Origin: Streptomyces albogriseolus
GTDB lineage: Bacteria > Actinomycetota > Actinomycetes > Streptomycetales > Streptomycetaceae
Direction of reading: 5' to 3'
Length of the DNA stretch: 64,000 bases
Assembly (NCBI GenBank): GCA_014650475.1
Contig: BMVA01000007.1
Coordinates: 248,001-312,000 of the forward strand
Shown: positions 1 to 20,753 of the stretch, one piece after another
Layout: every line of letters starts with the position of its first letter
Numbering within the stretch: position 1 is the stretch's first letter
Notes under the pieces: model-generated
What the model was told of the DNA's origin: nothing
The model's database searches: none
The model's input: only the letters and a program-made list of their open reading frames with translations
Position numbers and translations under genes: made by a program

Positions 1-128
1 CGACCGTATTTCTCCGCTGCTCTCTTGGCCTCGGGAACGGAAGCGATGACAGCGGACGGAACCATGTCGTGGGCCGTTCCCTGATCATCGACGAACTTGC
101 CGAATTCCAGGGCGTGGTAGTCACCCAT
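1..128 (-). CDS. Partial cassette membrane protein, N-terminus only
   Basis: The start (ATG at 126-128, behind a GGAG about 8 bases upstream) and the first 42 residues are in the window; the gene runs off the left edge. The visible part contains SAVIASVPEAKRAAEK, which aligns with GSVIAGVPEAKQAAEE near the N-terminus of the membrane protein at 1504-2100. It is therefore a paralogue, probably with the same downstream transmembrane segments, though those are outside the window. It lies in line with the minus-strand cassette 1 genes and 151 bases downstream of the last of them. It is either the final gene of that cassette or part of a further one. No biochemical function can be assigned. Confidence 0.6.
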   Translation of the reverse strand, partial: MGDYHALEFGKFVDDQGTAHDMVPSAVIASVPEAKRAAEKYG

Positions 129-226
129 GGATCAATCTCCTTACGCGGCAGGGGCCAAGGCGGCATGGAACGCCGCCGACGACGGGCTGGGAAGGGGCTG
201 CGGCCCGATGGGTAGGGCACGTGGAA

Positions 227-274
227 GCTCCTGGCTGGACAGTTGATCTCGACCATCACCCGTCCACCAGGAGC
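227..274 (-). terminator. Stem-loop after cassette 1
   Basis: GCTCCTGG at 227-234 pairs with CCAGGAGC at 267-274. The pairing extends inward (TGGAC with GTCCA) with one bulged base, leaving a loop of about 20 bases. It sits just past the stop of the minus-strand gene ending at 280 and before the next minus-strand gene. There is no clear U tract, as is common in Streptomyces. Inferred intrinsic terminator. Confidence 0.4.
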
Positions 275-279
275 CGTCG

Positions 280-858
280 TCACACCACCCAGTGCAGGGA
301 ACCAGCGATGGCCTCGCACAGGCGCAGCATCGGACCGGACATGCCGACGACCGGCGCGGAGAACGACAGGGTGAGGTAACCCGTCCCGCCCGGCAGGACC
401 ACATGGAGATCCAGGGACGTGAGTCCCACGACCCGGACGGCCCGGCCCGCCGGAAGGTCGACCACCCCGACCTCGCGCCCCGCACCGTCCTCGCCCTCCC
501 GTACCTCGATCCACGCCGCGAACGCCTCAGGATCGGCCGGCCTCTCACCCGGCGGCATGAGGGAGACGAGCAGAGAGGCCGGGAGACCGCCGTTGCGCGA
601 GAGCGTCAGGAGGTAGAACTCCATGGCGCCCCGCGCCCGCCCCGCCTCCGCGGTGTTGCGCAGGGTGGCCCACACGTTCCGCGTCAGCTCGGCCGGCACC
701 TGCCGGCCGTCCGCCTGCTTCTCCACGAAGGTCTTCAGCTGACGACGCCAGCGGTCCTGCGTCAGGTCGACGCGGAACCACTCCCGCGGGACGAGCAGCC
801 GGTAGTCCCGGGCACCGGCCGTCAGCGGCGCGGCGCCGCTCTCGGACGACTCGCTCAC
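280..858 (-). CDS. T7SS cassette soluble protein, family A (cassette 1)
   Basis: This 192-residue protein has no signal peptide or membrane segment. The N-terminal part reads DYRLLVPREWFRVDL, the middle has EFYLLTLSRNG followed by LPASLLVSLMPPG, and the end reads TLSFSAPVVGMSGPMLRLCEAIAGSLHWVV. The same layout recurs in the products of 9531-10082 and 7186-7818, so each cassette has one copy. The GTG start overlaps the stop of the preceding gene by 4 bases (GTGA), which indicates translational coupling and rules out a longer N-terminus. The fold looks alpha/beta with a C-terminal beta sheet and a last helix. It could be a chaperone, adaptor or immunity-like partner of the adjacent effector-like protein; that is inference from position only. 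Confidence 0.72.
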   Translation of the reverse strand: MSESSESGAAPLTAGARDYRLLVPREWFRVDLTQDRWRRQLKTFVEKQADGRQVPAELTRNVWATLRNTAEAGRARGAMEFYLLTLSRNGGLPASLLVSLMPPGERPADPEAFAAWIEVREGEDGAGREVGVVDLPAGRAVRVVGLTSLDLHVVLPGGTGYLTLSFSAPVVGMSGPMLRLCEAIAGSLHWVV

Positions 859-1523
859 CCCGGCATCACCAAGGGCCCCCCGGAGTCGTCGAAGAGGCGG
901 ACGCTCTTCACGATGCCGGCGAACATGGCGGAGAAGACATCCCACCCCTCGACCGTGGGCGTCCCCATCTCCAGCACCAGCACGGTGCCGTTGCTCAGCG
1001 GGATCTGCACCTGGATGAACGACGTCCAGATCGGCTCGTCCTGACCCGACTGCGTCAGGACGCCGTCGACGTTCGAGGCACGGTTGCCGACGCACGTCAC
1101 CGCCGGACCGCAGGGCAACTGCACCTCGTCGACCTGACCCAGCCCGAGGTGCCGCATCGTGGTCGCGAGGAACCCGGCCGGATTCCGGCCGGCCCGCTCG
1201 TCGAGGTCCATGAGGCTGACGTTCACCGTCGCCGTGCAGCGGACCCCGTCGACCTCCGCGTTGACGAAGCCGGCGTACTGCACACCGGCCTCGATGAACT
1301 CGTCGTAGTGCGCCGCGCACATCGCGGCGTACTGCAACTGCACCTCCTCGTCGGCGCCGGGCAGCGCCTGCTTGGCAAGAGCGACCAGCTGGTCCGCCAG
1401 CTCGTCCAGGTCGTCCGCCTCGAAGGGAAGCTCGAAGAACCCCTCGGGCATGATCCAGCGGACCTCTATGCCGTCGCTCCCGGTGAGCGCGCGCTGCGCC
1501 GCCTCAGCTGTTTCCGTGGTCAT
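855..1523 (-). CDS. T7SS cassette soluble protein, family B (cassette 1)
   Basis: This 222-residue protein has no membrane segment. It reads VRWIMPEGFFELPFE near the N-terminus, has two central strand-rich blocks (VRCTATVNVSLMDLDE and VQLPCGPAVTCVGN), and ends with a C-terminal strand-then-helix block (TVLVLEMGTPTVEGW, then an FAGIVKSVRLFD helix). The layout matches the product of 8945-9538, including the LPCGPAV / LPVGPAV block, which suggests common descent. The ATG at 1521-1523 was chosen because it lies 20 bases inside the end of the upstream membrane-protein gene, as in the other overlapping junctions of this operon. Function is unknown. Its constant position beside family A suggests the two work together. 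Confidence 0.7.
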   Translation of the reverse strand: MTTETAEAAQRALTGSDGIEVRWIMPEGFFELPFEADDLDELADQLVALAKQALPGADEEVQLQYAAMCAAHYDEFIEAGVQYAGFVNAEVDGVRCTATVNVSLMDLDERAGRNPAGFLATTMRHLGLGQVDEVQLPCGPAVTCVGNRASNVDGVLTQSGQDEPIWTSFIQVQIPLSNGTVLVLEMGTPTVEGWDVFSAMFAGIVKSVRLFDDSGGPLVMPG

Positions 1524-2100
1524 CTGCACCCTTGCTTCGGGACGGTTCACGGTCGTCCACCTCGGGACGGAACGTCGCGGCGAACGGGTAGGGCCCGTAG
1601 TGCGGATAGTGGGCCGGGATCTCCGCCCCTCCGCGCCGGGCGATGTGCGCGATTTCGCGGTACTTCGCCGCGCGGGCCCGCAGATTCTGCCGGACCGGGT
1701 CATCCCAGTGCTTCACCGCGCTGCGTACGAAGAAGAAGATCTGCGTCAGCAGGACCACCGCCGCGACCGCCAGATAGGCGTTGCGGGAGGCGGCGGTCTC
1801 CCAGTACCGCGCGACGCCGCCCCAGTAGACGACGGCTCCGAAGCCGACGAGCGCCAGCGGCACTCCGTGCTTGAAGCCCGCGTTGAACATCTCCTCCTCG
1901 TCGGCATGCCGCCGGCGCAGCAGGTCGAGCACCGCCTCGTCGTCGAGGAAGTCGAACCGGAGCTCTCGTCCCGCCTCCTCGGCGGCCTGTTTCGCCTCCG
2001 GCACGCCGGCGATCACCGAGCCGTCGACCAGCGTGACGGTGTCCCCGCCGCGTCGGCCGATGAACTGCCTCGGTCCTGGTTCCTGTTCATCGTGCGTCAT
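1504..2100 (-). CDS. Cassette 1 membrane protein
   Basis: This 198-residue protein has a soluble N-terminal ~85 residues, including VTLVDGSVIAGVPEAKQAAEE and an acidic stretch. Two hydrophobic segments follow, roughly residues 86-104 (LALVGFGAVVYWGGVA) and 112-130 (AYLAVAAVVLLTQIFFF), then a basic, proline- and tyrosine-rich C-terminal tail. It is predicted to be an inner-membrane protein with both ends in the cytoplasm. It follows the effector-like gene by 30 bases, overlaps the next gene by 20 bases, and is paralogous to the partial gene at the left edge. It may anchor or receive the cassette's secreted partner; this is positional inference. Confidence 0.72.
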   Translation of the reverse strand: MTHDEQEPGPRQFIGRRGGDTVTLVDGSVIAGVPEAKQAAEEAGRELRFDFLDDEAVLDLLRRRHADEEEMFNAGFKHGVPLALVGFGAVVYWGGVARYWETAASRNAYLAVAAVVLLTQIFFFVRSAVKHWDDPVRQNLRARAAKYREIAHIARRGGAEIPAHYPHYGPYPFAATFRPEVDDREPSRSKGADDHGNS

Positions 2101-2130
2101 GACATGTGCTTTCCGTTGCTGGGGCCACGC

Positions 2131-3366
2131 TCAGGCGGCCAGGGCCGCGTTGAACGCCTTCGGCGAGACGCTCGGGGCGGGGCGAGGGCTGGGGCGGGGC
2201 GAGGGCGACGGCGTGGGGGTCGGCGCGGTGGCCTTGGGGGGCTCCTGGTAGCCGGTCCGACCGCCGTTCTCACCGCTGAGCATGCGGTTCAAGGCGCTCG
2301 CAAGACCTGCTCCCTTGATGACAGCCGTGATCTTCTTGCCGTCGATCGCCGCAGCCCGAGCCGTCCTTCCCAGGACCTTGTTGGTCAGCTTGACGGCGAC
2401 CCCGTTCAGGAAGTTGTGTCCGACGCCGTCCAGCGCCCGCACGCCGCTGAACCTGAACTTCGTCAATCCCTTGACGCCCTTGAGGGCTCTGAACCCCTTC
2501 AGAGCTCCCAGGCCGGGAAGCACTCCCAACGCGTCGGCGCCCAGCTTCAACCAGTCCACCTTCCCGCCGCGCACCGTCATGTCGTACGCGTGACCGGCAA
2601 GGGCCGCCGCGCTCGCCACCACGGCCAGGGTCGCGAAGATGGGCACCAGGAACTGGAGTGGCGGAACGAACGCGCAAATGACCGCAAGGACGGACAGAAC
2701 TGCCGAGATGTTCGAGAGCATGTCGGCCCAGTCCGCCAGGAAGTTCATGAATCCGCCGGGATCCCGGACCGCATCGTGATGCACAACGTTCCTGATATGA
2801 CGAGCGGCCTTGTCCCCGGCGTCGTCATAGATCTCCCTGGCGTCCTTCACCGCCTTGCGGGCGCCCCCGATGCGGCGCAGCGCCTCGGCCCGCTTCTTGA
2901 CCCACCGCTCGTACTCCTCTTTCTCCGCGGCGGGGATCTCGAGCACCGTCGGGTATTTCTCGGTGAACTTCTTGACCTCACCGTCCGCGAGGTCGTGGTC
3001 GGCTTTCGCCTCCCGGTAGTCGGCGAGGGCCTTGTCCGCCTTGCGCTGCGCCCGCCGCATCTCGCTGGCGAACTGCTCCGAGCTTCCTTCGCTGACCTCT
3101 TCACCGACGGCCTTCGCCGCTTCGTCGTAGCGCTCGAAGGACTTCTTCAGCTTGTCGGCCGTACCGCCGGCGAGGTCGTGGAAGCCCTTGCCCGCCTCGC
3201 TGTCCCAGCCCTCGACGGAGGCCAGCGCCTTGATGACGCGGGACTGTTCGTCGATCATGTCGGCCATCTTGCGGAGCCTGCGGCCCAGTTCGGCGACCTC
3301 CTCAGGGTCGCCAGGCGTGGGGTCGTCGTGCCACAGCGGCGGCCAGTCGGCGTCTGTCCTGCTCAC
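2131..3366 (-). CDS. Putative T7SS-secreted protein with T7SS-signal-type N-terminus (cassette 1)
   Basis: This 411-residue protein opens with a long helical region (about residues 1-200) resembling the actinobacterial putative T7SS-signal domain. DPTPGDPEEV lies at residues 15-24 and a WXG-like turn (W54, with G58) follows, then helices ending in RRAQRKADKAL. A hydrophobic stretch of two or three segments spans about 218-258. A glycine- and lysine-rich region follows, then a proline/serine-rich tail (about 375-400). The products of 5418-6776 and 11477-12997 share the N-terminal motif and the central hydrophobic block. The gene overlaps its small helical partner by ATGA, the classic pairing of T7SS substrates. 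No recognisable toxin motif is seen at the C-terminus. Best reading: a secreted or membrane-inserting substrate of unknown activity. Confidence 0.72.
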   Translation of the reverse strand: MSRTDADWPPLWHDDPTPGDPEEVAELGRRLRKMADMIDEQSRVIKALASVEGWDSEAGKGFHDLAGGTADKLKKSFERYDEAAKAVGEEVSEGSSEQFASEMRRAQRKADKALADYREAKADHDLADGEVKKFTEKYPTVLEIPAAEKEEYERWVKKRAEALRRIGGARKAVKDAREIYDDAGDKAARHIRNVVHHDAVRDPGGFMNFLADWADMLSNISAVLSVLAVICAFVPPLQFLVPIFATLAVVASAAALAGHAYDMTVRGGKVDWLKLGADALGVLPGLGALKGFRALKGVKGLTKFRFSGVRALDGVGHNFLNGVAVKLTNKVLGRTARAAAIDGKKITAVIKGAGLASALNRMLSGENGGRTGYQEPPKATAPTPTPSPSPRPSPRPAPSVSPKAFNAALAA

Positions 3367-3674
3367 TTCTTCCCCTTGCTCTGCGCCTTGGCGTCCCGTA
3401 TCGCCTTGGCCAGCTCGCGGTCGATGTCGTCGTACGCCTTGGCCGCGGTCCGGGTGAACTCCGACAGCTGCTCAAGCTCCTTCATGAGCTTTTTGCGCGT
3501 CTTCTTCCAGGTGTCCCCGAAGTCGGAGAACGCGTCCTTGAGGCCGCCGTGGCCTATCGCGCTGCCGTACTCGTCCGCAGGGTTTCCGTGCTTCTCGAAC
3601 TCGCCGTGAATTTTCGCCAGGTCACGTGAACATTGTTTGATGGCGGCAAGGTCCGCCTTTATGTGATCCCCCAT
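3363..3674 (-). CDS. Small WXG100-like T7SS substrate/partner (cassette 1)
   Basis: This 103-residue, highly charged and almost wholly helical protein matches the size of ESAT-6/WXG100 proteins. It lacks a true WXG turn but has DAFSDFGDTWKKTRKKL (W56), a signature also present in the small proteins of the other two cassettes. It ends in YDDID (Y81-D85) followed by RELAKA. YxxxD/E is the established C-terminal secretion signal of mycobacterial T7SS substrates. The ATG is preceded by AAAGGA at a good distance. Its stop overlaps the start of the large partner gene by 4 bases, implying co-translation and probably a heterodimer. Secretion itself is inferred. Confidence 0.72.
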   Translation of the reverse strand: MGDHIKADLAAIKQCSRDLAKIHGEFEKHGNPADEYGSAIGHGGLKDAFSDFGDTWKKTRKKLMKELEQLSEFTRTAAKAYDDIDRELAKAIRDAKAQSKGKK

Positions 3675-3822
3675 GTTTCCATTCCTTTCTCACCTGTACG
3701 CACACGCTGCACGATTCCACAAGGACGAGCGCGACCGTCCGCTCACTCCATCGTCCCGACTCTGCACAGGAGATACTCTCAGTAGACCGATCTGGTTCGG
3801 CATCGGCAAGGAGATCGTTGGC

Positions 3823-4506
3823 ATGGCACGCAGGAGCAAACAGGGCGGAATCACGGAACGCCTCGGCATCCACTCCGAAGCAGGCGAATGGTGCTGGATC
3901 GGAAAAATCCCGCAGCCTCCGGCCGATGTTCTGCACGCCGCGGGTAACCCACCGCTCCGCCCGGCCCGCCGACCGCCGTTGGCCATGATCGGTACGGTAC
4001 TCGGCGCCCCTTTCCTCCCACTCCTCCTTCTCCTGAGCCTTCTGGCCCGAGCACAGGAGGCGGTGGAGCGTTCCCTCGACTCGAAGGAGGAGAAGGAACG
4101 CCACCGGGCGAAGAAGCAGGACGAGAAACGCATGGACGCGGCTGTGGAACAGCGCGGACTGGACAACGTCTTCGACGGCGACTGGAACGGCGCCGCCGGC
4201 CAGTTCCTCCTGCGCTGGTACAGCCACTCGACCCACCACGAGCGCCTGCTGTTCGCGGGCCCGGACGGAATCGTTCTCGCGGCCCCACCCAAGCGCGTCA
4301 GCTCAGGACGCGACAAGCACGCCCAGGTCGTCGCCCGGCTGTCCCCCAACGAGGCCACGCTGGAAGATCCCTTCTCCGGTGAGTTCGAGACCCGGATACT
4401 ACTGATCCGCTTCCACGACGGCTCCTGGCTGCGCGTGGACACGGAGGAGTCCCGCAGCGAACTCCACATGTACGCGCTCCGACGCCCGTCCCCCGGCGGA
4501 TTCTGA
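3823..4506 (+). CDS. Hypothetical membrane-associated protein between cassettes 1 and 2
   Basis: This 227-residue protein was placed at the ATG at 3823 because AAGGAG lies 9 bases upstream; the open frame extends further back but without a ribosome site. A single strongly hydrophobic segment (MIGTVLGAPFLPLLLLLSLLA) lies at about residues 54-74. It is followed by a very charged stretch with EEKERHRAKKQDEKR and then a soluble domain with WNGAAGQFLLRWYSHSTHHERLLF. The C-terminal half looks like a beta-rich domain. The gene is divergent from cassette 1. It is not one of the repeated cassette families and its role is unknown. It may be an accessory membrane protein of the locus or an unrelated insertion. 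Confidence 0.6.
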   Translation: MARRSKQGGITERLGIHSEAGEWCWIGKIPQPPADVLHAAGNPPLRPARRPPLAMIGTVLGAPFLPLLLLLSLLARAQEAVERSLDSKEEKERHRAKKQDEKRMDAAVEQRGLDNVFDGDWNGAAGQFLLRWYSHSTHHERLLFAGPDGIVLAAPPKRVSSGRDKHAQVVARLSPNEATLEDPFSGEFETRILLIRFHDGSWLRVDTEESRSELHMYALRRPSPGGF

Positions 4507-5121
4507 GGCAACGCCGACGCCCGTCCGAGGTGAGGCGCCCTCCGATCGACGCTTCGGCGAAGCGCCGCATCCCCGGTGGTGCCGGCCAGCCTCGACGTCT
4601 GGGGACGGAGATCCGCCTCAGGGTCCTCAACGACCGCCAGCACGTCGCCGGCGACGTAGATGTCCGACGTCGTCTGCACCTCAGACCCAGTACCACGCGC
4701 CTTGAGCTCGTGCTCCAACGGGTCGTCACGGTCAGGGCAGGGAAGGGAGAGCTGTGGCGGAGTCGACGAAGTTCATCGTGACCATCAGGGTGAAGTGCCG
4801 GTACCCCGAACAGCCGCTGACGGGCGTACAGGTCGCTGGACGGCACGTCGTTTCCGGCGATTTCGCCGCGAAGTTCGCGTTGGTGAAACCGATAACACCA
4901 CCGATATCGTCATTGCACAGGGCGCATCTCGTCTCACGGGAGGGCACAACCTACTACCTTCCAGGAACAATCACTTGGGACATCCCCTGGACCGGCACGG
5001 AGGTCACGGGCGGCGACCTGCCCGACAGCTCGGTAACGGCAGGCAGTCACCGTTCAGGGGATCCGGGCAGTCAACCGTTGACAGCTCAACAGCGAGTACA
5101 CACATGGGGGGAGGGTCCGCC
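4507..5121. other. 615-base intergenic stretch before cassette 2
   Basis: No convincing gene is seen. A plus-strand GTG frame at 4754 with an upstream GGAAGGGAGA runs into the next gene and has no recognisable content. On the minus strand, about 4515-4718 reads as protein-like sequence with good GC3 (TSDIYVAGDVLAVVEDPEADL) but runs on without an end of its own into antisense of the neighbouring gene and has only a TTG start, so it may be a gene remnant. The last 100 bases should hold the promoter of cassette 2. A run of eleven purines, mostly G, at 5105-5115 supplies the ribosome site of the next gene. Confidence 0.35.
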
Positions 5122-5421
5122 ATGGGCGAACCGGATCTGACGGTCGATTACGACTTCCTCGCAGACTGTGAGCGCAAGCTAGGCCAGCTCAAGAAGACCT
5201 TCGAGGACATCGAGAACCGCCGCGACGACATGAAGGAGCACTGGGGCTCCCGTGCAGTTGCCGAGGCCATGGAGGACTTCGTCGACAACTGGGACGACTA
5301 CCGCACCAGACTTGTCGAGTCTCTCGATTCCGTCGGCAAGCTCGTAGCGGGCAGCAAAAAGGCGTTCGAGGATCTCGACGGAGAGCTGGCCAAGGCGAAC
5401 AAGAAGAAAAAGAACAAGTGA
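5122..5421 (+). CDS. Small WXG100-like T7SS substrate/partner (cassette 2)
   Basis: This 99-residue helical protein starts at an ATG (5122) just after a very strong G-rich Shine-Dalgarno. It has W41-G42 in the middle hairpin (EHWGSRAVAEAMEDF), close to a WXG turn, and shares the MEDFVDNWDDYRTRL signature (W57) with the other cassette small proteins. It ends FEDLD (F82-D86) then GELAKA and a lysine-rich tail, a phenylalanine variant of the YxxxD secretion signal. Its stop overlaps the GTG start of the large partner by 4 bases. It is first in the plus-strand cassette 2. The family assignment rests on size, helicity and motifs. Confidence 0.74.
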   Translation: MGEPDLTVDYDFLADCERKLGQLKKTFEDIENRRDDMKEHWGSRAVAEAMEDFVDNWDDYRTRLVESLDSVGKLVAGSKKAFEDLDGELAKANKKKKNK

Positions 5422-6776
5422 CAGCGACATCCAAGCGCCGTCCGGTGGACTGGCAGCCCCTCTGTGAATTTGATCCCGTACCCGGCGATCCGGAGGAAAT
5501 CCGCGCCGAGGTCAAGCACATGATCTCGGTGGCCGAGAAGCTGCGAGACCAGGCCAAGAACCTTAAGGCGATCAGCGACGACGACACGCTCAAGGGCAAG
5601 TACGTCAAGACCCTGCGTGAGGAGTCCTCCACGCTGGAGAAGCACATGCGGGAAGTGGCCAGTCGCTATGAGCGCGTGCACGGCCACCTGACCAAATGGT
5701 CCGACGAACTGGAGGCTTTTCAGGCCGACGCCGACAAGGTGTTGCACCGGGCCAAGCAGAAGCAGGAAGAATTCGAGGCGGAGAAGGCCAAGAAGTCCGG
5801 TTCCGGTGACGGGGAGACGCCGCAGGCCTCACCCAGTGGCGAGGACCATCCCTACGAGGACCACCTCGAGTCGTACCGCAAGCAGCTGAACACCATCATC
5901 GGCGACCGTGACTCCCGCGCGAACCACCACAAGGACAAGATCCGCGCCGAGATCGAAGACGTGATCGAGGACTCGACGTGGGACAACGTGAAGGGCTGGG
6001 TCCACGACAACGCGGACCTGATCAAGGCCTTCATCGATGTCCTGGGCTGGGTAGCAACGTTCGCGGGTTTTCTAGCGCTCGCCATTCCCGGCTTGAATCT
6101 TCTCGTCCTCGGCATCGCAGGCCTTACGATCCTGCTCAGACTCGCCCTGGTGGCGTCCGGCGACGCCACCTGGACGGATGTCATCTTCGACGTCGTGGGT
6201 GGATTGCTCGTCGTAGGTGGTATCGGGGCCGCTGCGAAGCTCGCCAGCGGCGCCAAGGCCACTGTCAACGCCGCTCAGGCCGCCCGCACCACCGGCCTGA
6301 GTCAAGGACTCAGAGGCGTCAAGGGCATCATGGATGATATGGGACGGCTGATGTCCAAGATGCCGGAAGGGCCGGGGCGTCAAGTAGTCAGTACGGCACG
6401 CAACGGCATACGCAAGTCCATCTCCCAAAACGTGGGCCTGGTGACCAAGGGGCCTCTGAATGTCAGCCCGCTGTCAACTCTGCTGCATCTCGGCGACAAG
6501 GAAATGGCTGGCATGGCCAAGATGCTGCAGGCGAACAAAGCGGTCTTTCCGGCAGCCGCCGGGGCCGCTGCGGACAGGGCTTACAAATCCTACCAGTTGG
6601 GTCTCGGCATCGCGTGGACCGGCATGGGGATGGACGTCATGGACAAGACGCTGGGAAAGAGTGACCTGACGAGCTGGACGCACGAAAAGCTCGGAACCGG
6701 CGAAAAGCCCTACAACGAGGGGTATTCCGACTGGAAGGACAACACGCTGAAGCCTGCCCCCGACACCCACTGGTGA
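5418..6776 (+). CDS. Putative T7SS-secreted protein with T7SS-signal-type N-terminus (cassette 2)
   Basis: This 452-residue protein carries DPVPGDPEEI at residues 19-28, then a long charged helical region to about residue 185. WDNVKGWVHDNA (188-199) precedes a hydrophobic block at about 201-270. The WVHDNA segment and the following DVxGWVAT match the product of 11477-12997 closely. The C-terminal third (about 280-452) is helical with mixed charge, ending APDTHW, and matches no toxin I recognise. The GTG start is fixed by the GTGA overlap with the small partner gene. It is followed at 9 bases by a membrane-protein gene. Expected role: substrate of the EccC-type ATPase encoded nearby, possibly membrane-active; not demonstrated. 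Confidence 0.74.
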   Translation: MTATSKRRPVDWQPLCEFDPVPGDPEEIRAEVKHMISVAEKLRDQAKNLKAISDDDTLKGKYVKTLREESSTLEKHMREVASRYERVHGHLTKWSDELEAFQADADKVLHRAKQKQEEFEAEKAKKSGSGDGETPQASPSGEDHPYEDHLESYRKQLNTIIGDRDSRANHHKDKIRAEIEDVIEDSTWDNVKGWVHDNADLIKAFIDVLGWVATFAGFLALAIPGLNLLVLGIAGLTILLRLALVASGDATWTDVIFDVVGGLLVVGGIGAAAKLASGAKATVNAAQAARTTGLSQGLRGVKGIMDDMGRLMSKMPEGPGRQVVSTARNGIRKSISQNVGLVTKGPLNVSPLSTLLHLGDKEMAGMAKMLQANKAVFPAAAGAAADRAYKSYQLGLGIAWTGMGMDVMDKTLGKSDLTSWTHEKLGTGEKPYNEGYSDWKDNTLKPAPDTHW

Positions 6777-6785
6777 GGATGGACC

Positions 6786-7199
6786 ATGGACTTGAACTCA
6801 GCGCAACGCATCACCCAGGCCGAAGCCGCCCGCACGGGACTGGGGACCGGCCCCAACCGGCGACTCAGACTCACCCTGTTCATCGGGATGCCGATGGTCT
6901 TTCTGGTGTTCGGAGTCCTGATCCTCGTGCCGAAATCCCTGAGAGACGAAGTGCTTCACGTCTATGAGGCCGGGATCATCGGCTGTCTCCTCCACTATGC
7001 GTGGGTCTTCGCGAAGTACCCTCGGCACGCTGGCCGTCCGCCCTACCTCACCCGTGATCTCGCCATGGGCGGTGGCTTCTACTTGCCCTCCTTGATGCTC
7101 GGCTTCTGGCCGGGCATGATCGCCGCCCCGGCATGGGCACTCTTCGTAGGCATCACCTATGCGGTGGAAGTGACGCGGAGGCGAAATGACCACCGTTGA
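6786..7199 (+). CDS. Cassette 2 small membrane protein
   Basis: This 137-residue protein has about four hydrophobic segments: residues 30-48 (LTLFIGMPMVFLVFGVLIL), 60-76 (YEAGIIGCLLHYAWVF), 95-108 and 110-128. The N-terminal 28 residues are polar and the C-terminus is basic. The start ATG is 9 bases after the effector-like gene; a GAGGA lies just upstream. Its 3' end overlaps the next gene by 14 bases. It holds the same operon position as the membrane proteins of cassettes 1 and 3, although sequence similarity to them is not obvious. Role unknown. Confidence 0.7.
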   Translation: MDLNSAQRITQAEAARTGLGTGPNRRLRLTLFIGMPMVFLVFGVLILVPKSLRDEVLHVYEAGIIGCLLHYAWVFAKYPRHAGRPPYLTRDLAMGGGFYLPSLMLGFWPGMIAAPAWALFVGITYAVEVTRRRNDHR

Positions 7200-7818: not shown

Positions 7819-7863
7819 CGGGTCCCGCCCCCCGACCCACGTCCCCGACGAAAGAGACCTTTC

Positions 7864-8499: not shown

Positions 8500-8517
8500 G
8501 AGGGGAAGAGAAGGCCC

Positions 8518-9074
8518 GTGACTACGAGCGGACACAGCCGGACTTACGGTGGCCTCGGCGAGGGCCCTACCGCACTGGCAAGGCTGTGGCTCATCGTCGG
8601 CGTCTCTTCCATCTTCCTCGTGATGGTCGCGGGCGTTCTGCCGCCTTACGCCAAGGAGGCCGTCTACTGGTTCCAGCGCGCGCTGGTCACCGCGTCCGTG
8701 CTCACTTTGCTGGGGCTCCTCTTCAACCATCCACGCCCGTCGCGACGCCCCAAGGGCCTCACGGAGGTCTTCATCTACTCGCCCAGCCTCTTCCTCGCAG
8801 CCTGGGTGACCGGTGTCTGGGCAGGCGTCTTCGTGGCGCCTTTGGCCCCCTGTTCGCCCTTGGCGCCTGGGCAGCAGAGAAACTACGGCGGCACCGAACG
8901 GAGATCGGCGCGGACGGCGTCAAAGACGCAGGACACAGCACCCCTCAGAACCCCACCGTCAATGTCGACGCGATGCCGTCCAGGGCCTCTTCCATCTCCT
9001 CGGTCAGTCCAGGCACCAACCAGGACCCCAGCAGCATCACCGCGGCCCTCGAGCCGGTCGGCAGAACACCGTAG
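8518..9074 (+). CDS. Cassette 2 terminal membrane protein, apparent frameshift
   Basis: From the GTG at 8518 the frame encodes a polar start, then hydrophobic segments at about residues 22-42, 54-68 and 85-108 (FIYSPSLFLAAWVTGVWAGVF). Around 8845-8855 the reading switches character. The original frame continues as low-complexity Pro/Ser/Arg sequence to 9078. The frame one base back gives a natural continuation (GPLFALGAWAAEKLRRHR, then TPQNPTVNVDAMPS) and stops at 9074. A one-base loss near 8850, or a sequencing error, is the likely cause. Either frame runs about 130 bases over the 3' end of the convergent gene at 8945-9538. It is the last gene of cassette 2, matching the position of the partial gene at the left edge relative to cassette 1. 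Confidence 0.5.
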
Positions 9075-9538
9075 GTAACCGTCTCCAGCAGTACGCCGGG
9101 ATTCCCGCCAGGGGGGCTGCTCATCGCCAGGTTCTGGCGGATGCGCACAGCCGGGCCGACCGGCAGTTGCCTGCGATTGACCGTCGGCCCACCGAAGTCG
9201 TCGGCGCTGAACGTCTCGGCCAGCCAGTCCAGCGTGAGGCGGCGAACCGTCTCGTCGGGCCAGATCAAGTCCACCTCCAGCAGAGCGAGAGCCGAGTCGA
9301 ACCCGTCCGGATACAGGGCGAAGGCATAGAACGGGTCCCGGCTGCGGCTGTCCTCCGCTCGCGCTCGGAGGTCCCGTCGCAGGGTCCTTCGGTCCACCTC
9401 AAGGCCCACTGCCCGACCCCGCTCGCACAACCCCACCGCGGTGTTCTTCGCCCAGGCCTTCACGTCGTCCGACGGTTCCAGCGGCAGCGGCACCCAGTCG
9501 GTCGGGACGACGATGCCGCACGTACGGATGTCACTCAC
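8945..9538 (-). CDS. T7SS cassette soluble protein, family B (cassette 3)
   Basis: This 197-residue soluble protein opens TCGIVVPTDWVPLPL. Its helical N-terminal region contains RRTLRRDLRARAED, then YAFALYPDG, ALALLEVDLIW, the block RRQLPVGPAVRIRQN, and a C-terminal VTYGVLPTGSRAAVMLLGSWLV with a last helix. The LPVGPAV block and the C-terminal arrangement match the product of 855-1523. It is the last gene of cassette 3 and overlaps the family A gene by 8 bases. Its 3' end is overlapped from the other strand by the frameshifted cassette 2 membrane-protein gene, so the two cassettes converge here. Function unknown. Confidence 0.7.
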   Translation of the reverse strand: MSDIRTCGIVVPTDWVPLPLEPSDDVKAWAKNTAVGLCERGRAVGLEVDRRTLRRDLRARAEDSRSRDPFYAFALYPDGFDSALALLEVDLIWPDETVRRLTLDWLAETFSADDFGGPTVNRRQLPVGPAVRIRQNLAMSSPPGGNPGVLLETVTYGVLPTGSRAAVMLLGSWLVPGLTEEMEEALDGIASTLTVGF

Positions 9539-11464: not shown

Positions 11465-11476
11465 CTTGTGCCCCGT

Positions 11477-12997: not shown

Positions 12998-13341
12998 CGC
13001 GCGCCGCCGTCGGCGCCCGGCTTCCGCCGGTCCGTGCGTCGCAGGGCTTCGGCGAGTGCGTGATCGACGTCCTCGTACGTCTTTGCCACGGTGGACAGCA
13101 GCGTGGACAGTTTTTTCAGCTCGTCCGACAGACGCTCGCGGTGGATCGCCCAGTTGTCACCGAAGTCGTCGAAGACGTCGGCCAGTCCCTGATCACCCAG
13201 AGTGGCCACGCCCAACCCTTCGGCGGGGTTGGCGTTCCTGGTGAATTCCCGGTGAATGCTTGCCAGAGCCCTGGCACTCCGCTTGATACGTCCGATGTCG
13301 GCGGTCTGGTCCGACAACTTGTCCCCCGCTGGGTGTGTCAC
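12994..13341 (-). CDS. Small WXG100-like T7SS substrate/partner (cassette 3)
   Basis: This 115-residue helical protein uses a GTG start with a weak ribosome site; a later TTG is possible, and comparison with the cassette 1 protein suggests the first 10 residues may be an extension. It has VFDDFGDNWAIHRERL (W64), the signature shared by the three cassette partners, and ends YEDVD (Y89-D93) then HALAEA, a canonical YxxxD signal. It aligns along its length with the cassette 1 small protein (NPAEGLG against NPADEYG). Its stop overlaps the start of the effector-like gene. It lies 75 bases downstream of the EsxA-like gene, so both may be on one transcript. Confidence 0.72.
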   Translation of the reverse strand: MTHPAGDKLSDQTADIGRIKRSARALASIHREFTRNANPAEGLGVATLGDQGLADVFDDFGDNWAIHRERLSDELKKLSTLLSTVAKTYEDVDHALAEALRRTDRRKPGADGGAR

Positions 13342-13416
13342 GGCACGGAACGGTGGGACGGGACGTTCCAGCTCGCCCGCCCCACCGCCGGTGTAACTGC
13401 AACCAGCAGCCGGAAG

Positions 13417-13716
13417 TTACTTCCGCGCCGCCTTCGCCAGCTCGTCGTCGATCTGCTCGAACTTGTCGGCCGCCATGGTCAGGTAGTCGCCCATGCCGTC
13501 GAGGCCGTCCAGCGTGGTCTTCGCGCCGTTGGTGAACTCGTCGAAGTTCTCGTCGAAGGCCTTCGAGGAACTCTTCGTGACGTAGCCCGAGTTGACGAGG
13601 TTGTTGATGTACTTGCGGAGGCCGTCCAGCTTCTCCTGAAGCTTTTCCTTCTCCTTCACGACATGCTTGGCAGCTTCCCGCATGTCCTGATATGTGATGT
13701 CAAGGTCTTTGGCCAT
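13417..13716 (-). CDS. WXG100 family protein, EsxA-like
   Basis: This 99-residue protein has two predicted long helices around a central turn (NLVNSGYVTKSSSKAFDENFDEF), the arrangement of Streptomyces and Firmicutes WXG100 proteins in which the W-x-G turn is replaced by SG plus an aromatic residue. It ends FEQID (F86-D90) and then DELAKAARK, a variant of the YxxxD secretion signal also found in the cassette small proteins. The ATG is preceded by GGGAG at a good distance. It is divergent from the EccC-type ATPase gene across 327 bases, so the pair likely forms the core of the system. It is expected to be exported as a dimer. Confidence 0.82.
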   Translation of the reverse strand: MAKDLDITYQDMREAAKHVVKEKEKLQEKLDGLRKYINNLVNSGYVTKSSSKAFDENFDEFTNGAKTTLDGLDGMGDYLTMAADKFEQIDDELAKAARK

Positions 13717-13888
13717 GAAGCCGCTCCCTCTCGCAACGCCGCAGGGCCAACCCCCGTGGCTCCCTTGTTCGCGGAACGGCCGGCCTGCCGTCGCGGCCCC
13801 TGCGGCTCAGGGGCCTCTCGGGCCCGCCGGTGTGATCGTCCGCTCTTGCGGCAGAAGCTTACGGGGGCGAACTGCGCCGCCACATCCC

Positions 13889-13918
13889 CACTTTGTGAAG
13901 GCAACGGTCACAAGTGGT
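13889..13918. promoter_or_regulatory. Inverted repeat between esxA-like and eccC-like genes
   Basis: CCACTTTGTGA and TCACAAGTGG flank a 9-base spacer; the arms match except for one extra T. It lies in the 327-base divergent intergenic region (13717-14043). The arms resemble a CRP half-site (TGTGA/TCACA), but the 9-base spacer is longer than the usual 6. The TTGTGA arm could also be the -35 region of the minus-strand gene. No other strong signal was seen in this gap apart from GGGGAGGA ahead of the ATPase start. Candidate operator. Confidence 0.35.
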
Positions 13919-14043
13919 GGACGCCGTTGCTGCCGGGAACGCGGGCCGCTCCCCGACTGCCTTTTGGGCGGGCCGAGCCGATATCGTCGGCGGGACTGTG
14001 CGCCGCGGGGTGGAAGCGGCCGCAGGGCCTGGGGAGGACAAGC

Positions 14044-17000
14044 GTGCGCCTGACTCTGACCGTCGTCGATCCGTACGGCGGGGACTCCGCCGATGTCGTA
14101 CTCGATGCCGATCCCGAGTCGACCGTGGGGGACGTCGCGCGTGAGCTGGCCGCGCAGGTCGGGCACGCCGGGGCCCAGGTCATCCCCATCGGGCACCAGG
14201 GGCAGACGCCCGCCGGGAACACGCCGATGGTGTACGTCGACGGGTATGCCGTCGACCCCTCCGCGACCGTCGTCGGCTCGCCCCTGCGCGACGGGGCCGT
14301 CGTGTCCCTCCAGGACCCCTCCGGATGTCTGCCGGGCGAGCCGACCGGCCTCGTCGAGCTGCGCGTCGTCGGCGGGCCCGCCGCCGGCTTCGTGCACCGG
14401 CTCGGCGTCGGGCGCTACGACATCGGCAGCGGCAACGCCTCGTACGTCCGCGTCGACGACCCCGAGGTCGAGGCCCGCGCGCTGACCCTCTCCGTCGCGA
14501 CCGACGGGACCTGCCAGGTCGTCGTGCACGGCGAGCACGCCGGCGTCACCCTCGACGGCGAGCCCATCGCCGACGCCCAGGAACGCCGGGACGAGGAGAA
14601 GCGCCGCGCCGAGAGCGGCGACGGCGAAGCCGACACGGACGCCAAGAAGAAGAGGCGCAGGAAGAAGAAAAAGAAGAAGAAGAAGGAGGAGGGCAGCGGG
14701 GGGCAAGGGGCCTTGCGCGGGGGGCGGTTCGACTGGCCGCTCGGCGGGCAGATCGCCGTCGGGAACAGTCTTCTCGAACTCGCCCGTTACTCCCCTCCCA
14801 ACGCCGCCCTCAAGTGGTCGGACGACGGCGTCGGGCTCGACTACAACCGGCCGCCCCGGCTCCGCCGGCCCGAGCGGCAGACCAGCTTCCGGCTGCCCTC
14901 CAAGCCGCGCGACTACGAGGCCCGGCCCCTGCCCTGGATCATGGCGCTGACGCCGCTGGTCGGGTCGGTCGTCATGGTGGCGATCTTCCAGCGCTGGTAC
15001 TACCTGATCATGGCGGCGCTCAGCCCGATCCTGCTCTTCGCCAACTACTTCAACGACAAGAAGCACGGCCGCAAGTCCCACGCGAAGCAGGTGAAGGAGT
15101 ACGAGGAGCAGAAGGCCCGGATCGAGAAGGACGCCCAGGACGCGCTGGTCCAGGAGCGCGACGACCGGCGGCACGCCATCCCCGACCCGGCGACCGTGCT
15201 GTCCCTGGGCACCGGGCCGCGCACCCGGCTGTGGGAGCGGCGCCGTACCGACCGCGACCATCTGCTGCTGCGGTTCGGCACGGGGCAGATGCCGTCCGAG
15301 GTGGTGCTCGACGACCCCGAGCAGGACGACCACCGGCGCCAGGTCACCTGGAAGATCGAGGACGCCCCGGTCGCGCTGAACCTGCGCGGGCTCGGCGTCA
15401 TCGGCGTGGCCGGTCCCGGCGACTCGGCGCGCGCGCTGGGGCGGTGGGCCGTCGGGCAGACCGCCGCGCTGCACAGCCCGATGGACGTGCAGTTCTACGT
15501 GCTGAGCGAGAACTCCGCGCAGGAGTCCTGGGACTGGGTGCGCTGGCTGCCGCATGCCCGCCCCTCCGGCGGTCACGACGTGAACGTCCTCATAGGCACC
15601 GACGCCGAGACGGTCGGCGCCCGCATCGGCGAGCTGACGCAGATCCTCGACGCCCGCAAGAAGGCCGCCGACCAGAACCGCTCCCAGGGCACGACGTTCA
15701 GCGACCCGGACATCGTGGTCGTCTGGGACGGCTCGCGGCGGCTGCGGTCGCTGCCCGGTGTGGTGCGGCTGCTGCGCGAGGGCCCCTCGGTGTCGATGTA
15801 CGCGATCTGCCTGGACGCCGAGGAGCGGTTCCTGCCCGGCGAGTGCCAGGCGTTCGTCGTCGCCGAGCCGCATGTCGAGGAGCAGGAGCGGCAGCAGACG
15901 GACCGGGCGGCGCAGCCGGCCGTGGCGGGCGGTTTTCCCTCCTTCCAGGCGTGGCACAGCAACGCCCCGGAGCCCGGCCGCGGTTCCCAGCAGGCGCCCG
16001 ACACGCTGCGGCTGCGCGTGGAGGAGGCCGGCGCCGAGCGCATCAAGGACGTACGGCCGGACTTCGTGTCGCCCGCCTGGTGTCTGCGGCTGGCCCGTTC
16101 GCTGTCGCCGCTGCGCGACATCAGCGGGGAGACCGAGGACTCGGCGCTGCCCGGGTCCAGCCGGCTCCTCGACGTGCTGCAGCTGGAGCCGCCGACGAGC
16201 GACGCGATCATGGCGCGCTGGCGGATGGGCGGGCAGTCGACGCTCGCGGTGATCGGCGAGTCGTACGACGGGCCGTTCGGCATCGACATGCGCAAGGACG
16301 GTCCGCACGGCCTCATCGCCGGTACGACCGGTTCCGGTAAGTCGGAGCTGCTGCAGACGATCGTGGCGGCGCTGGCCGTCGCCAACACCCCCGAGAACAT
16401 GACGTTCGTCCTCGTGGACTACAAGGGCGGCTCGGCGTTCAAGGACTGCGTCAAACTCCCGCACACCGTCGGCATGGTGACCGACCTCGACGCGCATCTC
16501 GTGGAGCGCGCGCTGGAGTCGCTGGGCGCGGAGCTGAAGCGGCGCGAGCACATCCTGGCCGCCGCCGACGCCAAGGACATCGAGGACTACCAGGACCTGG
16601 TGCGCCGCGACCCGTCGCACCCGCCGGTGCCTCGGCTGCTCATCGTGATCGACGAGTTCGCCTCGATGGTGCGTGACCTGCCGGACTTCGTCACCGGTCT
16701 GGTCAACATCGCCCAGCGAGGCCGGTCCCTCGGCATCCACCTGCTGCTCGCGACGCAGCGGCCGAGCGGTGTCGTCTCCCCCGAGATCCGCGCCAACACC
16801 AACCTGCGGATCGCGCTGCGGGTGACGGACGCCGGTGAGTCGACGGACGTCATCGACTCGCCCGAGGCCGGTCACATCTCCAAGAGCACCCCCGGCCGCG
16901 CCTACGCCCGGCTGGGGCACGCCTCGCTGGTGCCGTTCCAGTCGGGACGCGTCGGCGGACGGCGGCCCGGCGCCGCGGACCCGGCCGCGCTCGCGCCGTG

Positions 17001-18753
17001 GGTGGGGCCGCTGACCTGGGAGGACCTGGGCCGGGCGGCGCTCACCAAGCCGAAGTCCGAGGCGCGTGAGGACGAGGAGATCACCGACCTGAAGGTGCTG
17101 GTCGACGCGGTGCGCGACGCCAACGCCGCGCTCGGCATCCCCGCCCAGCACAGCCCCTGGCTGCCCGCCCTGGACGAGACGCTGCTGCTGGACGACATCG
17201 AGGCGCCGTCGTACGCGGCCGCGCCGGGCACGCTGCCGCCGGCGCCGTTCGGCGTCGAGGACCTGCCCGCCGACCAGGCCCGCCGCCCGGTCGTCGTCGA
17301 CTTCTCCTCGTTCGGCCATCTGATGATCGGCGGCGCCCCGCGCAGCGGCCGGTCGCAGGTGCTGCGCACCATCGCGGGCTCCCTGGCCCGCACCCACTCC
17401 GTGGCCGACGTGCATCTGTACGGCATCGACTGCGGCAACGGCGCGCTCAACGCGCTGACCCGGCTGCCGCACTGCGGCGCGGTCGTCGGCCGTAACCAGA
17501 CCGAGCGGGTGGTCCGGCTGATCAACCGGCTCAAGGGCGAACTGTCGCGCCGCCAGGACCTGTTGGCGGAGGCCGGCTTCGCGGACATCGGGGAGCAGCG
17601 GGCCGCGTCCGCCGAGGACGAGCGGCTGCCGCACATCGTGGTGCTGCTGGACCGCTGGGAGGGCTGGGTGCCCACGCTCGGCGAGATCGACCACGGTTCG
17701 CTGACCGACGAGCTGCAGACGATGATGCGGGAGGGCGCGAGCGTCGGCATCCACCTGGTGCTGACCGGTGACCGCACGCTGCTGGTGGGCCGGATCGCGA
17801 GCCTCACGGAGGACAAGTACGGTCTGCGGCTCGCCGACCGCAGCGACTTCTCGTCGCTGGGCATCCCCGCCCGCAAGGTGCCGGAGGAGATCCCGCCGGG
17901 CCGCGCCTTCCGCAACGAGTCCGGTACGGAGACGCAGTTCGCGCTGCTCGCCGAGGACACCACGGGTCAGGGGCAGGCGGCCGCGCTCACCTCGATCGGT
18001 GAGGCGGCGGCCGCCCGGGACGCCGGAGTGCCGCGTGTGCGGCGGCCGTTCCGCGTGGACAGCCTGCCGAGCCGGATCTCCTTCCCCGAGGCGTGGGAGC
18101 TGCGCGACCCGGACGTCTCGCGGTCGAAGCTGTTCGGTCTGGCCGGCATCGGCGGCGACGAGATCGTCGGCTTTGGTCCCGATCTCGCCGACGGCGTACC
18201 GGCGTTCGTGATCGCGGGTCCTGCCAAGTCGGGCCGCTCCACGGTGCTGATGAACTTCGCGCAGTCGTTCCTCGCGCAGGGCACGCGGCTGGTGATCGCC
18301 GCGCCGCGCCAGTCGCCGCTGCGCCGGCTGGACGGCACGGAGGGTGTGCTGAAGGTGTTCACCGGCGACGACATCGACGAGGACGAGTTCGAGGAACTGG
18401 TCGACGAGGCGTCCCTGGAGGAGCCGGTCGCCGTGCTCGTCGACGACGGCGAGATCCTCGAGGACTGCGACGCCGAGAGCCAGTTGAAGAAGCTGGTGTC
18501 GCGCGGCACGGAACGCGGGCTCGCCCTCGTCATCGCCGGTGACGAGGAGGACGTGTGCAGCGGCTTCTCCGGCTGGCAGGTCGACGCGAAGAAGGCCCGC
18601 CGCGGCATCCTGCTCTCCCCGCAGGAGTCCTCCAGCGGCGACCTGATCGGCGTCCGGCTGTCCCGGGGGATGGTCGGCGGCCAGATCGCCCCGGGCAAGG
18701 GCATGCTGCACCTCGGGGACGGCGAGCTGCGGACGGTCGTGATCCCGGGGTGA
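14044..18753 (+). CDS. eccC: Type VII secretion FtsK/SpoIIIE ATPase, EccC/EssC-type
   Basis: This 1,569-residue protein is the motor of a T7SS. The GTG start has GGGGAGGA six bases upstream; the longer open frame upstream has no signal. The order is an N-terminal ubiquitin-like/FHA-type region (1-280) interrupted by a run of about 16 mostly basic residues (about 200-220), two membrane segments (297-336), then three FtsK-type ATPase domains. Walker A motifs are GTTGSGKS (760-767), GAPRSGRS (1097-1104) and GPAKSGRS (1392-1399). Domain 1 has Walker B with D870-E871, while domains 2 and 3 have Arg in place of the P-loop Lys. One canonical and two degenerate domains is typical of EccC. The fused N-terminal forkhead-like region is more like EssC of Firmicutes than mycobacterial EccC. 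The symbol is by family. Confidence 0.9.
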   Translation: MRLTLTVVDPYGGDSADVVLDADPESTVGDVARELAAQVGHAGAQVIPIGHQGQTPAGNTPMVYVDGYAVDPSATVVGSPLRDGAVVSLQDPSGCLPGEPTGLVELRVVGGPAAGFVHRLGVGRYDIGSGNASYVRVDDPEVEARALTLSVATDGTCQVVVHGEHAGVTLDGEPIADAQERRDEEKRRAESGDGEADTDAKKKRRRKKKKKKKKEEGSGGQGALRGGRFDWPLGGQIAVGNSLLELARYSPPNAALKWSDDGVGLDYNRPPRLRRPERQTSFRLPSKPRDYEARPLPWIMALTPLVGSVVMVAIFQRWYYLIMAALSPILLFANYFNDKKHGRKSHAKQVKEYEEQKARIEKDAQDALVQERDDRRHAIPDPATVLSLGTGPRTRLWERRRTDRDHLLLRFGTGQMPSEVVLDDPEQDDHRRQVTWKIEDAPVALNLRGLGVIGVAGPGDSARALGRWAVGQTAALHSPMDVQFYVLSENSAQESWDWVRWLPHARPSGGHDVNVLIGTDAETVGARIGELTQILDARKKAADQNRSQGTTFSDPDIVVVWDGSRRLRSLPGVVRLLREGPSVSMYAICLDAEERFLPGECQAFVVAEPHVEEQERQQTDRAAQPAVAGGFPSFQAWHSNAPEPGRGSQQAPDTLRLRVEEAGAERIKDVRPDFVSPAWCLRLARSLSPLRDISGETEDSALPGSSRLLDVLQLEPPTSDAIMARWRMGGQSTLAVIGESYDGPFGIDMRKDGPHGLIAGTTGSGKSELLQTIVAALAVANTPENMTFVLVDYKGGSAFKDCVKLPHTVGMVTDLDAHLVERALESLGAELKRREHILAAADAKDIEDYQDLVRRDPSHPPVPRLLIVIDEFASMVRDLPDFVTGLVNIAQRGRSLGIHLLLATQRPSGVVSPEIRANTNLRIALRVTDAGESTDVIDSPEAGHISKSTPGRAYARLGHASLVPFQSGRVGGRRPGAADPAALAPWVGPLTWEDLGRAALTKPKSEAREDEEITDLKVLVDAVRDANAALGIPAQHSPWLPALDETLLLDDIEAPSYAAAPGTLPPAPFGVEDLPADQARRPVVVDFSSFGHLMIGGAPRSGRSQVLRTIAGSLARTHSVADVHLYGIDCGNGALNALTRLPHCGAVVGRNQTERVVRLINRLKGELSRRQDLLAEAGFADIGEQRAASAEDERLPHIVVLLDRWEGWVPTLGEIDHGSLTDELQTMMREGASVGIHLVLTGDRTLLVGRIASLTEDKYGLRLADRSDFSSLGIPARKVPEEIPPGRAFRNESGTETQFALLAEDTTGQGQAAALTSIGEAAAARDAGVPRVRRPFRVDSLPSRISFPEAWELRDPDVSRSKLFGLAGIGGDEIVGFGPDLADGVPAFVIAGPAKSGRSTVLMNFAQSFLAQGTRLVIAAPRQSPLRRLDGTEGVLKVFTGDDIDEDEFEELVDEASLEEPVAVLVDDGEILEDCDAESQLKKLVSRGTERGLALVIAGDEEDVCSGFSGWQVDAKKARRGILLSPQESSSGDLIGVRLSRGMVGGQIAPGKGMLHLGDGELRTVVIPG

Positions 18754-20645: not shown

Positions 20646-20753
20646 GGCGCCACCCCTCCCCCGTCGCACCGGTACGCCGTTGCCACCTGGCAGCGTAGTG
20701 GCCGGACCGGGCGGGGGTCCCGGACCGGCCACGGGCGCCCGCTTCCAAGGCGC

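Follow-up and report, generated by a model that had tools for sequence, protein, structure and literature searches.

Organization of the cassette locus

The DNA stretch analyzed here covers positions 248001–312000 of contig C7 (BMVA01000007.1) in the 8.07 Mb genome of Streptomyces albogriseolus (G000:C7:248001-312000), and these 64,000 nucleotides are referred to as the window. Positions 280–18753 of the window contain three gene cassettes belonging to a type VII secretion system (T7SS), a gene encoding an EsxA-like protein and a gene encoding an EccC/EssC-type ATPase (Table 1). In each cassette, a WXG100-like gene shares 4 bases with the substrate gene, which is followed by a gene for a membrane protein and by two genes encoding soluble companion proteins, designated cA and cB. 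The new element reported here is the companion family, which has a predicted PsbP/Mog1 fold and appears to be tied to T7SS substrates bearing a hydrophobic hairpin. The first-pass annotation of the window contained neither the predicted fold of the companions nor the hairpin of the substrates, the link to Rhs toxins or any function for the companions.

The WXG100-like partners are 99–115 amino acids (aa) long. The substrates of 411, 452 and 506 aa all carry the motif DPxPGDPEE and exceed the gathering score of the T7SS_signal family PF21725 (39.9, 31.8 and 35.3 vs 27 bits). No LXG domain was matched in the three substrates by Pfam at E values up to 1. The gene order in cassette 1 is WXG100-like gene, substrate, membrane protein, cB, cA; in cassettes 2 and 3 the last two genes are cA and cB. 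The gene calls and the PF21725 matches bear out the first-pass description of three cassettes built on one plan, with a 4-base overlap of the WXG100-like and substrate genes. The matching members of the cassettes had also been expected to be related. In an all-against-all BLASTP comparison of 18 window proteins this holds for the WXG100-like partners (E 2e-9 to 1e-25), the substrates (1e-11 to 2e-37) and the cA proteins (5e-4 to 7e-23). It also holds for the cB proteins of cassettes 1 and 3, both of which match the cA profile in hhalign. The expectation failed for the membrane proteins, which show no mutual similarity by BLASTP, and for the second companion of cassette 2, which has no detectable relationship to cA and cB in profile comparison (Table 1). 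A fourth intact cassette is located upstream of the window on the same contig (approximately G000:C7:233.1-237.4 kb), and its membrane protein is a homolog of the cassette 3 membrane protein. The view of the locus as a set of parallel T7SS substrate cassettes, each with its own WXG100-like partner and companions, is well supported.

The EsxA-like protein and the ATPase match the families PF06013 (WXG100) and PF01580, respectively; with TIGR03928 and TIGR03924 the ATPase stays below the curated cut-offs. The N-terminal part of the ATPase shows a weak match of 26.6 bits, below cut-off, to Yop-YscD_cpl, which we take to be an FHA-type family. The most likely start of the ATPase gene is position 14044 and not 13060, as had been annotated at first, because of the start and upstream sequence and the starts of its relatives. 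The closest of these among the matches listed are Streptomyces proteins with 74–87% identity. The search for relatives, in which one search pattern was a lysine run, yielded at least nine loci, four of them useful (L007–L010), and cassettes of the same kind adjoin EccC in all four of these Streptomyces loci. All three cassettes of the window lie to the left of the EsxA-like and EccC genes; contrary to the original statement, they do not flank this core. That they are served by this one ATPase, another early claim, is unproven: two contigs, C18 and C42, carry further EccC-type genes with tandem FtsK domains, and in both cases an EccD gene is close by. EccD matches in the genome are confined to these two contigs, and the cassette locus, unlike a canonical T7SSa locus, contains none. 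The designation of the short substrates as effectors found no confirmation in Pfam and NCBIfam, which show no toxin domain in the three window substrates.

Distribution of the companion family

The cA gene was found in at least 20 of the 61 genomes of the genus and in at least 25 of the 197 genomes and 13 of the 90 genera of the class. These counts are lower bounds, because the scoring covered a part of the first-look candidates. Regions for the study of co-occurrence were found with the cA profile alone. Among 35 regions from 20 genomes of the genus, 31 contain at least one other T7SS gene (substrate, WXG, EsxA or EccC) and 28 contain a substrate gene. Outside the genus, 20 regions were obtained from 17 of the 21 matching genomes; another T7SS gene is present in 19 of them and a substrate gene in 12. 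The cassette genes thus co-occur in other genomes, as the first-pass annotation had anticipated.

The gene order of the cassettes is variable. In L055, L064, L066 and L008 the cA gene is located upstream of the WXG gene and not after the membrane protein gene.

Predicted fold of the companions

The idea of a Mog1/PsbP-type fold predated the structure prediction for cA. The AlphaFold2 model of cassette 1 cA, built from ten sequences, has a pLDDT of 87.3 and a pTM of 0.83. When the model was compared with the PDB using Foldseek, PsbP was found at rank 1 (probability 1.00, E 1.6e-3). Lower in the list are Tsi3 (rank 8, 0.93), a Jonesia protein (rank 14) and SciW (rank 17, 0.94), an Eag chaperone in complex with the Rhs1 transmembrane domain. 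A PsbP/Mog1-type fold is thus predicted for cA. The model of cassette 1 cB is of low confidence and too poor to count alone. Its Foldseek matches include MTC28, LpqN, the Jonesia protein, SciW (rank 5, probability 0.97), PsbP, Tsi3 and Mog1, and two matches of this model have E values below 0.001. The mycobacterial proteins MTC28 and LpqN, which we take to have a Mog1-type fold, resemble the companions through these matches of the low-confidence model; their PDB titles name a secreted antigen and an envelope biogenesis protein and not T7SS chaperones.

None of the 73 cA members matches a Pfam family at E 0.01, DUF1795 of the Eag proteins included. DUF5085, the family of the ExiAB proteins, gave no Pfam match to cA or to the cassette 1-type cB, and the structures named in the top 50 Foldseek matches of the cA model and of the low-confidence cB model include none of GyrI type. 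The profile of the cassette 1-type cB retrieved nothing relevant from the PDB. Judged by sequence, the companions are not Eag proteins; they may be said to work like them, not to be them.

Hydrophobic hairpin of the substrates and its association with the companions

Hydrophobic segments after the signal were detected in 109 of 113 collected substrates of the family, a set that is biased because many of its members were found via cA. Three of the four exceptions are short (154–238 aa). For a census, all 150 listed PF21725 matches (of at least 150) from the 61 genomes of the genus were typed, and one of them (L190) was dropped due to masked letters. A companion was counted as lying beside a substrate if it was encoded within 7 kb. 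By this rule, a companion lies beside 53 of the 91 matches with hydrophobic segments vs 1 of the 58 matches without them. The sole hairpin-lacking match with a companion (L061) is a substrate truncated at the boundary of its region. After removal of 14 fragments, the numbers are 53 of 88 and 0 of 47. The association is seen for substrates shorter than 650 aa (45 of 57 with the hairpin vs 0 of 7 without it) and for longer ones (8 of 31 vs 0 of 40). Counted by genome, a companion is present somewhere in 21 of the 26 genomes with a hairpin match vs 2 of the 20 genomes in which only the other type occurs.

An earlier subset of 80 of the 150 matches was not blind, as it omitted 31 matches in regions fetched with cA and 39 others. 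In this subset, a companion lies beside 21 of 52 hairpin matches vs 0 of 27 hairpin-lacking ones, or 20 of 52 vs 0 of 27 under the slightly stricter rule of the full census. By length, the numbers are 21 of 31 vs 0 of 4 for the short substrates and 0 of 21 vs 0 of 23 for the long ones.

Rhs toxins with the same companion family

In several genomes, genes near cA encode proteins of approximately 1500 aa that combine T7SS_signal and the hairpin with DUF6531, RHS repeats and a tip. The Rhs protein at C7:109.2-113.9 kb in the host genome (L068) has a YwqJ deaminase tip, and the Rhs protein of L076 an NS_2 endonuclease tip. L077 encodes a 923 aa protein with an RNase A domain and no Rhs match. Two more hairpin Rhs proteins of the host genome have the tips AHH and NS_2 (L171, L172). 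The host genome thus encodes three hairpin Rhs proteins, each with a tip of its own, and one cA of the Rhs lineage.

Six Rhs loci located beside cA were compared. The cA proteins share 80–95% identity (mean 85), the hairpin regions 83–99% (mean 89) and the signals 75–93% (mean 80). The last 130 residues share 0–35% (mean 24) over 0–105 aligned residues. The constancy of cA next to unrelated Rhs tips is not the behavior of a toxin-specific immunity protein. In 26 cassette pairs with a similar hairpin and an unrelated tail the mean normalized cA similarity is 0.84, and the converse was found in no pair. In genome G047, a cA of the Rhs lineage is located at an EccC/EsxA/WXG locus, while no companion is encoded close to four hairpin Rhs genes situated elsewhere. 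This arrangement is as expected of a shared chaperone.

Proposed function of the cassettes

We consider it probable that the companions are cytosolic chaperones of PsbP/Mog1 fold, which shield the hairpin of the substrate before type VII secretion, and that the membrane protein is a candidate for immunity. This proposal for binding, secretion, toxicity and immunity is built on the observed gene order, protein families, co-occurrence and hydrophobic segments and on the predicted fold. The substrate would be composed of a helical T7SS_signal head, the hydrophobic hairpin at approximately residues 200–300 and a tail. The WXG100-like partner, probably produced by translational coupling, would pair with the head and target the substrate to EccC. 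This step is proposed by analogy with the LXG-Lap and PE-PPE complexes, which serve as models for an export signal formed by partner and head (PMC11217815). One or two companions would bind the hairpin in the cytosol, as the Eag chaperones bind the transmembrane segments of effectors of the type VI secretion system (T6SS). The shielding would prevent aggregation of the substrate and its insertion into the producer's own membrane. The companions would be stripped off at EccC, and outside, the hairpin would insert into the target membrane. The Rhs versions would then deliver their C-terminal toxin, and the short versions may cause membrane damage themselves. The membrane protein of the cassette is most likely an immunity protein; according to crude gene calls, at least 49 of the 70 short substrates with companions are followed within three genes by a membrane open reading frame (ORF).

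Several observations weigh against this proposal. No Foldseek match of the cA model reaches E 0.001, the TM-scores range from 0.30 to 0.55, and the cB model has a pLDDT of 62. The top two PDB matches of an 11-row cA profile are PsbP proteins, at insignificant E values of 0.09 and 0.85. The 73-row profile gave no PsbP or Eag match in the PDB, so that the weak matches of the 11-row profile are not taken as proof of the fold. Six of the 73 cA proteins contain a segment with a KD19 value of 1.6–1.74. Across 66 cassettes, cA covaries equally with the signal, the hairpin and the tail (Spearman 0.34, 0.35 and 0.33, respectively). This does not discriminate between binding of the hairpin and binding of the signal, and the hairpin is preferred here on the grounds of fold and co-occurrence. 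In the census, 38 of the 91 hairpin matches have no companion nearby. In the 80-match subset, this applies to 31 of the 52 hairpin substrates (10 short, 16 long and 5 giant). Six of the 16 long ones were scanned, and all six are Rhs proteins; a companion is encoded elsewhere in the genome for all companion-less substrates of the subset except three giants. The giant hairpin class (more than 2100 aa as far as read; G036, G048, G049, G059 and G060) breaks the rule. No companion was found anywhere in G036, G048 and G060, and EccC is present within the region in all five cases. G016 and G033 each have a hairpin-scored match without a companion, and both frames fail the substrate profile. Conversely, G004 and G045 hold a companion although their listed matches lack the hairpin. 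G045 does have a hairpin substrate (L078), and in G004 no hairpin substrate was detected beside cA (L079). The Fisher p values of 3e-14 for the census and 3e-5 for the subset are optimistic, since the genomes are related and the hairpin-lacking matches form another sequence class. Furthermore, the training regions of the companion profiles had themselves been located via cA.

The giant T7SS_signal-like proteins are encoded at L147, L151, L164, L181 and L192; they have hydrophobic segments, no companion and EccC in the region. In the three flanks that were read (L151, L164 and L181), a protein of 338–351 aa with a helical-looking N-terminus and repeats is encoded beside the giant. The giants may represent a different solution or use an unseen chaperone.

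The companions could alternatively be cytoplasmic immunity proteins, like ExiAB for EsxX of Staphylococcus aureus, whose role would be to protect the producer by sequestration of the membrane-active part and not to promote secretion. The EsxX system is built on the same plan: EsxX has helical partners, its glycine zipper is bound by a soluble heterodimer, and polytopic membrane proteins confer immunity (PMC12744356). The T6SS immunity protein Tsi3 is among the fold matches of cA. Nevertheless, this explanation appears unlikely given that one companion family accompanies Rhs toxins with unrelated tips and that a companion can stand apart from the toxins, at an ATPase locus (G047). The chaperone and immunity roles are not exclusive. 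We also regard it as quite unlikely that the companions are general T7SS targeting factors, which would bind the T7SS_signal head or EccC like EspG and EsaE. Their predicted fold is of the PsbP/Mog1 type, and the structures named among the top 50 fold matches include no EspG-like one. In this case the link to the hairpin would mark one substrate lineage, with which the low scores of the hairpin-lacking matches on the substrate profile, typical of another class, would agree. Targeting would also be compatible with the equal covariation of cA with signal and hairpin and with nine regions (L069, L071, L213, L218, L223–L225, L227 and L228), in which cA is located near EccC or WXG-like genes and no substrate was detected.

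A different explanation concerns the short substrates, which may be structural or developmental secreted proteins and not toxins, so that the cassettes would serve the envelope or the sporulation of the producer. Developmental phenotypes have been reported in some Streptomyces T7SS work, and the three short window substrates lack a toxin domain. However, YwqJ deaminase, AHH, NS_2 endonuclease or RNase A domains are present in hairpin substrates belonging to this family, and the three cassettes have mutually unrelated membrane proteins, a pattern to be expected if these confer immunity. We therefore have some doubt about a developmental role and hold it to be rather improbable.

Other features of the locus

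A conserved membrane ORF, orfP, is located between cassettes 1 and 2. It has no Pfam match, and several Streptomyces loci contain it next to a cassette or to the EsxA/EccC core. A cassette remnant (G000:C7:247286-248128) is situated at the left end of the window and comprises a gene for a membrane protein as well as a fragment of cA within a frame of 80 aa. The region between cassette 4 and the window (G000:C7:237.4-244.1 kb, L005) contains Tad-pilus-like genes, among them TadE/F-like genes and a gene for a CpaF-like ATPase, which were named by eye without a profile search. Some T7SS variants, T7SSg and T7SSh, have been reported to adjoin Tad loci (PMC11217815). A Ser/Thr kinase gene at 18810–20732 on the minus strand is convergent to EccC. 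Rfam and tRNA scans of the window gave no matches.

Table 1. Genes and proteins of the cassette locus (positions in the window)
Feature	Position	Strand	Remarks
Cassette 1 companion cA, 192 aa	280..858	-	Predicted PsbP/Mog1 fold; AlphaFold2 and Foldseek (PsbP, Tsi3, SciW)
Cassette 1 companion cB, 222 aa	855..1523	-	cA superfamily; hhalign with cA profile Prob 96, E 4e-9; with 73-row cA profile Prob 97.7
Cassette 1 membrane protein, 198 aa	1504..2100	-	Max KD19 2.07; paralog at G000:C7:247556-248128
Cassette 1 substrate, 411 aa	2131..3366	-	T7SS_signal PF21725 39.9 bits; hydrophobic segments at ~223 and ~243 (KD scan)
Cassette 1 WXG100-like partner, 103 aa	3363..3674	-	EspC 24.2 bits (above cut-off); WXG100 20.2 bits (below cut-off); 4-base overlap with substrate gene
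orfP, conserved membrane ORF beside core	3823..4506	+	Homologs in L007, L009, L010, L051, L053, L063; max KD19 2.25
Cassette 2 WXG100-like partner, 99 aa	5122..5421	+	WXG100 23.8 bits (below cut-off); 4-base overlap with substrate gene
Cassette 2 substrate, 452 aa	5418..6776	+	PF21725 31.8 bits; hydrophobic segments
Cassette 2 membrane protein, 137 aa	6786..7199	+	Max KD19 2.64
Cassette 2 companion cA, 210 aa	7186..7818	+	BLASTP to cassette 3 cA 5e-13
Cassette 2 second soluble companion, 211 aa	7864..8499	+	hhalign Prob 9.6 and 3.9; homologs in L010, L053
Second membrane ORF, paralog of 6786-7199	8518..9078	+	BLASTP 2e-8, residues 12-108; 3' part overlaps cassette 3 and looks spurious
Cassette 3 companion cB, 197 aa	8945..9538	-	cA superfamily; hhalign with cA profile Prob 95.9, E 5.8e-9
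Cassette 3 companion cA, 183 aa	9531..10082	-	BLASTP to cassette 1 cA 7e-23
Cassette 3 membrane protein, 461 aa	10079..11464	-	Max KD19 2.16; homolog in cassette 4
Cassette 3 substrate, 506 aa	11477..12997	-	PF21725 35.3 bits; hydrophobic segments
Cassette 3 WXG100-like partner, 115 aa	12994..13341	-	BLASTP to cassette 1 partner 1e-25; 4-base overlap with substrate gene
EsxA-like WXG100 protein, 99 aa	13417..13716	-	PF06013 60.9 bits (cut-off 27.3)
EccC/EssC-type ATPase, 1569 aa	14044..18753	+	PF01580 205.9 bits; TIGR03928 565.8 bits (cut-off 778.4) and TIGR03924 431.2 bits, both below curated cut-offs

Comparison with known systems

The Eag chaperones (DUF1795; SciW, EagT6; PMC7773334) resemble the companions in the predicted fold, in the location of their genes near effectors with transmembrane segments, including Rhs toxins, and in the co-occurrence by genome. 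The companions differ from them by the lack of a sequence match to DUF1795, the T7SS_signal head of the substrates, the frequent presence of two companions per substrate and the actinomycete hosts. The T6SS sheath gene (VipB/TssC) had no match in the host genome, and the control search was positive in E. coli.

The EsxX-LapX-ExiAB-ExiCD system of S. aureus likewise combines a membrane-active T7SS substrate, small helical partners, a soluble pair and polytopic membrane proteins. The ExiAB heterodimer binds the glycine zipper of EsxX, and the polytopic membrane proteins ExiCD confer immunity (PMC12744356). In contrast to the companions, ExiAB belongs to DUF5085; its predicted fold is a GyrI-like duplicated SHS2 fold, the substrate has an LXG head, and no Rhs version was seen in the available part of that paper. 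EspG (T7SSa) and EsaE (T7SSb) are also cytosolic chaperones of T7SS substrates (PMC11217815), but their fold differs from that of the companions as far as the top fold matches show. LrhA of the Listeria T7SSb is a DUF6531-Rhs toxin encoded at a T7SS locus together with the small helical partners LxpABC, for which the available text shows no PsbP/Mog1-like chaperone (PMC10327511). Among the open-access journal papers listed in the literature searches, no title or opening part of an abstract mentions a PsbP/Mog1 or Eag chaperone for T7SS.

We see an even chance that the T7SS of Gram-positive bacteria has its own Eag-like family of PsbP/Mog1 fold, cradling the transmembrane hairpins of T7SS toxins, Rhs toxins included. 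If this is true, T6SS and T7SS would share a whole module composed of a head, a membrane hairpin, an Rhs shell, a swappable tip and a Mog1-fold chaperone. The PsbP/MOG1 domain, which was called diagnostic of T6SS in a 2025 paper (PMC12419801), would then no longer be so. The comparison suggests that two unrelated secretion machines have one solution in common. A machine that exports helical bundles must carry membrane-spanning segments without losing them into the membrane of the producer, and one answer to this problem, ExiAB, was published in 2025 (PMC12744356). The cassettes described here would be a second answer with a different predicted fold, and this gives proteins that have remained unannotated, with no Pfam family for any of the 73 members, a testable job.

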